A stretch of 64,000 nt of DNA from Planococcus liqunii. Lineage in GTDB: Bacteria; Bacillota; Bacilli; Bacillales_A; Planococcaceae. The stretch lies in assembly GCF_030413595.1 (NCBI RefSeq), contig NZ_CP129238.1, forward strand, positions 3,782,001 to 3,846,000, written 5' to 3'. This document shows, piece after piece, positions 6,971 to 25,435 of this stretch (position 1 is the first letter of the stretch; each line of letters opens with the position of its first letter). The translations under genes and the position numbers were made by a program. The notes under the pieces are model-generated. The model was not told the origin of the DNA and did not search any database. It saw nothing but the letters and a program-made list of their open reading frames with translations.

Positions 6971-7051
6971 ATGCCCAAGTTCGGGATCATTATGCCCAGC
7001 TTTTCTTTTTTATGCCCCTCTTAGCCGGCTTTACGCCCAACTGCCTTTTTC
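6971..7051. repeat. 21-nt-period intergenic array A (ATGCCC core)
   Basis: The core A(T/C)GCCC(A) begins at 6971, 6992, 7012 and 7033, spacings 21, 20 and 21. The sequence between cores is not conserved. It lies in the 3' untranslated stretch of fnr, before its terminator. The same core and period recur at 25277-25381. Confidence 0.7.
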
Positions 7052-10072: not shown

Positions 10073-10150
10073 AAATACGACCCGGAACGGTTAAAATACG
10101 ACCAGTTAGTTCAGAAATACGATTCACAGCAAGCAAAATACGATTTCAGC
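10073..10150. repeat. 21-nt-period intergenic array C (AAATACGA core)
   Basis: The 8-base core AAATACGA occurs at 10073, 10094, 10115 and 10136, exactly 21 bases apart, with unrelated 13-base fillers. It lies between the panB stop codon and the shared terminator, as array A lies after fnr. The core differs from arrays A and B but the period is identical. Confidence 0.75.
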
Positions 10151-25244: not shown

Positions 25245-25276
25245 AAACAGCGGAAGCGTCCAGACTCTTATTGCTT

Positions 25277-25381
25277 ATGCCCAACTAGCCTGTGGTTATG
25301 CCCAATTCCGGCCTTTTAACGCCCAAGTTTCCGGTGAATACGCCCAACTTATTCCGCTTTATGCCCATCTCCCCAAATATC
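25277..25381. repeat. 21-nt-period intergenic array B (ATGCCCAA core)
   Basis: Cores A(T/C)GCCCA begin at 25277, 25298, 25319, 25340 and 25361, every spacing exactly 21. The fillers differ. It lies between the RDD gene stop and a bidirectional terminator. One plus-strand frame reads as heptads with Y/N-A-Q, but without a start or ribosome site. Confidence 0.78.
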
Positions 25382-25386
25382 AACAT

Positions 25387-25435
25387 AAAAAGCGGCCAGG
25401 AATCGTCTTGGCGCCATTCCGGGCCGCTCTTTTTT
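25387..25435. terminator. bidirectional terminator, RDD gene and gluconate kinase
   Basis: AGCGGCC-A-GGAAT pairs with ATTCC-G-GGCCGCT, flanked by A and U runs on both sides. Confidence 0.92.

Follow-up and report, generated by a model that had tools for sequence, protein, structure and literature searches.

A 21-nucleotide array in Planococcus liqunii as a very probable member of the bacterial tandem repeats of constant length and variable sequence

Results

Between two convergent genes of Planococcus liqunii, a short word recurs five times at an exact step of 21 nucleotides (nt). We conclude with high confidence that this array belongs to the bacterial tandem repeats of constant 20–21-nt length and variable sequence. 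It represents one of many core families in a class that, in the sections of PMC8161180 drawn on here, is already described in Bacillus. Those sections of Subirana and Messeguer (2021) cover 176 Bacillus genomes with repeats of constant size (20–21 or 52 nt) and variable sequence, report several families per species, each with a short conserved word, and propose that the repeats serve proteins polymerising on DNA or give rise to small RNAs.

Within the window, the 64,000-nt stretch of P. liqunii DNA that was analysed, the word AYGCCCA starts at 25277, 25298, 25319, 25340 and 25361; the step is exactly 21 nt and the array extends over 25277–25367. The earlier note had these starts and this period right, and described as 8-base a word that has seven bases. 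GCCCA, from 25279, is the window's sole 5-mer with five-fold recurrence at one spacing (10–80 scanned), and four-fold recurrence over the same range occurs only there and at 10073, both at spacing 21. First-order Markov sequences of 64 kb each, simulated 100 times and scanned over 71 spacings, contained no five-fold case and two four-fold cases in all. Tandem Repeats Finder, run on the window, did not list the 25277–25367 array.

On the minus strand, each unit consists of AAGTTGGGCRTA and about nine free bases, the filler. Compared with AGTTGGGCRTA, the minus-strand cores of unit 2 (AGTTGGGCGTA, 25339..25349) and unit 5 (AGTTGGGCATA, 25276..25286) are perfect, those of unit 1 (AGATGGGCATA, 25360..25370) and unit 4 (AATTGGGCATA, 25297..25307) carry one mismatch each, and that of unit 3 (ACTTGGGCGTT, 25318..25328) carries two. 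Several core bases have been lost both here and in the P. glaciei copy; the two arrays differ at 5 of 54 core and 11 of 50 filler positions, a contrast that is not significant (p 0.10). Elsewhere in the window, four AAATACGA words at spacing 21 form a second array at 10073–10143, behind a hairpin in a convergent setting, and a degenerate array of the same family as the one at 25277 lies at 6971–7039, with steps of 21, 20 and 21 nt.

On the plus strand, the array is preceded by an RDD-family gene (PF06271; 24702..25244). Convergent to this gene is an FGGY carbohydrate kinase gene (PF00370, PF02782; 25435..27090, minus strand), whose coding strand is the AAGTTGGGC strand of the array. A hairpin at 25391..25428 has a T-run beside it on each strand and folds with z scores of −3.59 (plus) and −4.76 (minus). 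A consensus terminator scan picked up only its inner part, on the plus strand and with a score at about shuffle level. The hairpin seems to be a bidirectional terminator common to the RDD and kinase genes. The array is intergenic, between the RDD stop (25244) and this hairpin. Its placement between the RDD stop and the terminator therefore holds for the RDD gene, while the kinase gene has the array past its own hairpin, and the label of a 3' untranslated region is half right. By eye, the P. glaciei locus (L157) runs from kinase terminator to array to an oxidoreductase gene, with no RDD gene between, and the P. chinensis locus (L158) has a degenerate array and, after it, the end of the RDD gene.

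The assignment to the class rests on unit spacing rather than on SATFIND, the program of PMC8161180. By that measure the array has the class length (20–21 nt, at least four mostly equal units), with five units at exactly 21. Several families share the P. liqunii genome, which holds GGC, CTC, GGACAGTATTT, CGTATTTT and AAATACGA arrays, and P. halotolerans has more array families still. The window array is non-coding in that it is intergenic and its coding frame is unsupported, although some arrays at a second site, described below, enter the 3' end of a gene. As far as the cited sections of PMC8161180 go, the shared features are the period of 20–21, several families per genome with differing sequences, one short conserved word per family, a non-coding position and a patchy taxonomic distribution. 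Those sections do not name Planococcus among their groups, and they do not extend to the boundary of core and filler, to placement at gene ends, to orientation or to the switching of a triplet at an orthologous site. Family cores found here include TTGGGCRTA, TTGGGARTA, TTGATCGTA, TTGGAAAGTA, CGGACAGTA, GGGCGATTA and CCGCAACTAA, among others.

We detected arrays as any 7-mer occurring three times at an exact spacing of 9–60; since this detector overlooks the window's own array owing to its A/G position, the counts are lower bounds. In 41 stretches (544,824 bp), mostly Planococcus and most of them chosen for holding an array, there were at least 77 sites at spacing 21, 7 at 20, 32 at 42 and 5 at 40, and 0–3 at each other spacing. 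Twenty 20-kb stretches of the P. liqunii genome that were not chosen for arrays yielded no site at 20, at least two at 21, and a single one at each of the spacings 12, 22, 27, 30, 48 and 60. A further 20 stretches from other genomes of the family (386,112 bp), also not array-chosen and some of them from the same genus, gave at least nine at 21, several of these in open reading frames or plain duplications, four at 42 and single sites at 9, 15, 26, 27 and 33. The 20 stretches of P. halotolerans (nominally 400 kb) held at least 30 such sites, 25 of them at 21 and five at 20, and a single stretch (L238) accounts for 13; besides multiples of 20/21, only spacings 9 (two sites), 39 and 49 (one each) occurred. 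Across 80 named Bacillales loci (1.70 Mb), we counted at least 19 sites at 21, 9 at 20, 10 at 42, 5 at 40 and 10 at 52–53, with 1–3 sites at a few other spacings; of the 22 loci from Planococcus or Planomicrobium, 9 have matches at 20/21, versus 3 of the 58 others. Block shuffles of the other-genome and P. liqunii samples and of the Bacillales loci, one per stretch, contained no site at any spacing, and 100 kb of E. coli contained no array sites.

Other repeats met in this survey include those of 52–53 nt in eight Bacillales loci (L189, L190, L195, L197, L220, L223, L226 and L231), which correspond to the other constant size, the 52-nt sister class, in the cited sections of PMC8161180. In a genome from another genus of the family (G060; L092 and L093), arrays are numerous and their core, ACTTGGGCATA and GCCCAAG, resembles the present one without being identical to it. 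Near-perfect 20-nt arrays with few alternating fillers occur at L253 (16752–16907) and L194 (17747–18475), and give the impression of recent arrays that expand as one or two units are duplicated.

We compared units within 34 same-family arrays of relatives (151 units, selected by core with at most two mismatches). Within an array, core positions vary from unit to unit at rates of 0.00–0.09, save for the A/G (R) position at 0.32, and filler positions at 0.46–0.78, the last six reaching 0.70–0.78, where random sequence would give about 0.75. Although one mismatch was allowed anywhere, all 183 distinct units have a purine at R, A in 105 and G in 78, and both bases are mixed within 19 of the 34 arrays. 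Such mixing, restricted to purines, speaks for recognition rather than homogenisation. These relatives agree with the earlier proposal that unrelated fillers point to selection on core and phase over simple tandem duplication, a support tempered by the fact that the arrays were located through their core. Plain tandem duplication fails for the family: fillers are near random, though some arrays show recent duplications.

Neighbouring cores in stretches of five relatives are spaced by 21 in 145 cases, 20 in two, 22 in none, 42 in one and 69 in two; in P. liqunii the counts are 21 (five), 42 (two), 41 (two), 20 (one) and 62 (one). Both sets allow up to one mismatch in the core and so include the sister family TTGGGAGTA. 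Between orthologous arrays (43 pairs, 139 unit comparisons), the AGTTGGGC and TA positions differ at rates of 0.00–0.04, R at 0.32, the remaining positions at 0.12–0.45 and the aligned flanks at 0.13. These figures are biased towards a conserved core, as the unit offset was picked for best filler identity, and unit-by-unit orthology is uncertain in several pairs with filler identity of only 0.33–0.56.

The stringent two-unit pattern of the family (F1) occurs in 9 of 46 Planococcus genomes and is absent from 37, with controls at 0. Its counts are 33 in G133, 31 in G105, 19 each in G088 and G112, 12 in G097, 8 in G137, 7 in G026, 3 in G126 and 1 in P. liqunii. A paired pattern occurs 14 times in P. 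liqunii versus once for the reversed-pattern control; by eye, 11 of the 14 lie in arrays and three elsewhere. For the single core, matches versus control matches are 18 versus 16 in P. liqunii, 48 versus 8 in G105, 3 versus 10 in G118 and 6 versus 5 in G044. Periodic cores thus stand far above chance in the relatives, and in P. liqunii itself the paired pattern exceeds its control while the single core is about level with it. The refuting outcome named in the earlier note, periodic cores at chance level or relatives without the spacing at this locus, is not what the relatives show, although the stringent pattern is missing from most of the genus.

The family is sparser and less regular in P. 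liqunii than in its F1-rich relatives. It is likely decaying there, on mixed evidence: the single stringent pair, a single-core count close to control and irregular steps of 20, 41 and 62 favour decay, but the share of perfect in-array units (9 of 15) is no lower than in G097 (19 of 39) or G026 (11 of 22), two shares in which sister-family units are counted as imperfect.

The site after the kinase gene can hold other cores. Judged by eye over 420 bases, 14 of 22 Planococcus loci have arrays or remnants there and eight have none. P. glaciei and P. chinensis carry F1-type copies, and other loci carry period-20 arrays with the cores GCGATTA, GCGCGTTCA, GCACGTTTA, GCGCGGTGA or GGTCGCTCAG; L171, L172 and L174 show just two or three units within the 420 bases. 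A second such site is the 3' end of a NERD-domain gene (PF08378), where 12 of 12 close orthologs have an array (at least 54% identity; weaker matches, at most 30% bar one 84-residue fragment, were left out). All 12 genomes keep the frame AAGTTG-NNN-RTA but exchange the triplet throughout most units: five have GGC, four (P. liqunii among them) have CTC, one has ATC and two have GGA/AGA, these last two with several degenerate units. One genome can hold several of these families, as G026 does with GGC, GGA and ATC arrays. In six loci (L263–L268; G137, G126, P. liqunii, G123, G148 and G136) the NERD-site array starts inside the coding sequence. It provides the TGA stop in five of them, and the G126 gene stops at the TAA of CTCGTAA.

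Placement was surveyed by running a codon-usage gene caller on 101 stretches of Planococcus DNA (1.79 Mb). The 128 distinct arrays comprise 56 in convergent, 49 in tandem and 8 in divergent intervals, 8 at stretch edges and 7 inside called genes, mostly coiled-coil genes. Background intervals of at least 80 bp (n=907) are 559 tandem, 216 divergent and 132 convergent. Convergent intervals are therefore enriched among intergenic arrays (56 of 113 versus 132 of 907; Fisher p 6e-16) and divergent ones depleted (8 of 113 versus 216 of 907; p 1e-5), with p values that are too small since orthologs recur and some stretches overlap.

Orientation follows the gene in one group of families: AAGTTG is on the coding strand in 17 of 18 tandem AAGTTG-core arrays, which by our grouping represent about nine independent sites, eight of them co-oriented. 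C/G skew was sufficient to list 39 of the 49 tandem arrays; of these, 28 have the C-rich strand antisense and 11 have it sense. In other families orientation is not uniform, and the L238 arrays point both ways. By our own simple terminator finder, applied within 350 bases and without a random-placement control, 20 of 29 convergent or tandem F1 arrays are separated from the upstream gene by a same-strand terminator, and in four such a terminator comes after the array. Among the 19 of these 29 that are convergent, 13 are separated from the opposite gene by that gene's terminator, and terminators flank the array on both sides in nine.

Discussion

What might such arrays do at gene ends? The reading we lean towards, tentatively and without calling it probable, is that the core is a putative protein site and that a head-to-tail filament at the ends of transcription units acts as a roadblock or insulator. 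Each family's core would be the asymmetric site of a sequence-specific DNA-binding protein, copies of which would sit head to tail two turns apart along a single face of the helix. The resulting short nucleoprotein filament could form a polar barrier to read-through and to colliding transcription of neighbours, often convergent ones. This binding-protein model fits the exact 20/21-bp phase, the asymmetric core with its purine-only position, the free fillers, the gene-end placement and the orientation. Phase, purine-only degeneracy, gene-end place and tandem orientation are observed, as are the core/filler split and triplet switching; binding, polymerisation and the roadblock are proposed from them.

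Binding of this kind exists: in the part of PMC5859096 cited here, BldC forms asymmetric head-to-tail multimers on DNA direct repeats of varying number. The likeness is one of working mode, with no claim of BldC membership, and BldC differs in being, according to the same part, a Streptomyces promoter regulator. No partner protein for the arrays was found, and LytTR proteins, counted in 46 Planococcus genomes, do not follow them. Because the family is sparse in P. liqunii, its putative partner may be weak or lost there. A counterpoint to the binding-protein model is the number of cores in a single genome, which would call either for many proteins or for a broadly specific one. In a more elaborate and rather improbable version, the arrays would be boundary marks that carry an address, with a group of paralogous DNA-binding proteins reading them. 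Here the fixed AAGTTG...RTA frame would position the protein and the swappable central triplet would name the paralogue that binds; in evolution a site would swap the triplet along its units with no change of place, phase or orientation, and the genome would hold a re-writable code of transcription-unit boundaries.

The arrays may instead be neutral minisatellites, which we consider possible though on the unlikely side. Slippage would duplicate units in the space between terminators, a space that also tolerates junk, and short template switches would keep the cores alike without any function. Recent unit duplications do occur, as identical fillers (G088 C26), near-perfect 20-nt units (L253) and alternating fillers (L194), and core bases have been lost in the P. 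liqunii and P. glaciei copies. Homogenisation should, however, level R, yet A and G are mixed in 19 of 34 arrays with a pyrimidine in 0 of 183 units, and the near-exclusive period of 21/20 and the strand orientation would require an extra cause. Orientation that goes with the gene would suit an RNA function, be it a small RNA, a sponge, a 3'-untranslated-region element or a C-rich strand serving as a Rho-utilisation site against antisense transcription, and small RNAs are among the proposals for the class in the cited sections of PMC8161180. The Rho version also draws on the C-rich strand being antisense in 28 of 39 skewed tandem arrays. We regard an RNA function as unlikely: arrays lie on both sides of terminators, the NERD site included, and single-stranded RNA does not need an exact 21-nt phase. 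The window array's RNA fold is not unusual (z +0.84 and −0.44) and a search of Rfam gave no match up to E 1, so that the specific role in a 3' untranslated region or RNA suggested earlier is not supported.

Two further readings are very much less probable. Operators of LytTR-type response regulators are 9-bp direct repeats with 12–13-bp spacers, hence a 21–22-bp period, with the consensus [TA][AC][CA]GTTN[AG][TG]. They resemble the AAGTTG families in having direct repeats about 21 bp apart and a similar GTT word, and AAAGTTGGG fits both consensus and period, but they usually comprise two sites and lie at promoters. Cores such as CGGACAGTATTT or GGGCGATTAA, CTC and most others miss the consensus. 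LytTR matches number 2–4 in the nine F1-positive genomes and 0–4 in the others, and LytTR occurs in 42 of 46 genomes versus the F1 pattern in 9 of 46. We judge it highly improbable that the AAGTTG families are such operators, and reject this as a family-specific explanation because the protein's distribution does not follow the arrays. Lower still in probability, and bordering on negligible, is a coding role for heptapeptide repeats (Y-A-Q-L-x-x-x) in an antisense frame. The period of 21 is a multiple of three, the complement of R gives Tyr codons only, and stops in the YAQL frame fall in 15 of 183 units versus 27 ± 4.4 in column shuffles. A second reverse frame, however, is also low in stops (13 versus 20.7 ± 3.3), those 15 units still hold a stop, the third positions of Ala and Gln are invariant while R varies, and period-20 families exist, as does a 20-nt step in the 6971 array. 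One protein search with the window's open reading frame found nothing. On the stops, the invariant third positions and the period-20 families we reject heptapeptide coding.

Among known dispersed elements, REP/BIME repeats lie at gene ends and CRISPR arrays combine a constant repeat with a variable spacer. The arrays are like REP/BIME in their gene-end dispersal and differ in that the core is not palindromic. They share constant repeat and variable spacer with CRISPR, but here many arrays of different cores occur per genome, and we reject a CRISPR array since the whole unit is 21 nt, against repeats and spacers of about 20 nt or more each.

Should a protein line up on the arrays as the binding-protein model proposes, this would be a new way to mark boundaries between bacterial genes. 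The natural triplet swaps seen at one orthologous site yield predictions of the array that each protein should bind, and Planococcus offers a workable system for the role of constant-length, variable-sequence repeats. The core and the change that it tolerates are defined there at single-base level, and P. halotolerans gave at least 30 exact-period matches in a nominal 400-kb sample. In this species, at least 13 arrays with the core GTCGTATAG are gathered within about 13 kb of one stretch (L238, 5823–18521), many with similar fillers and in both orientations.
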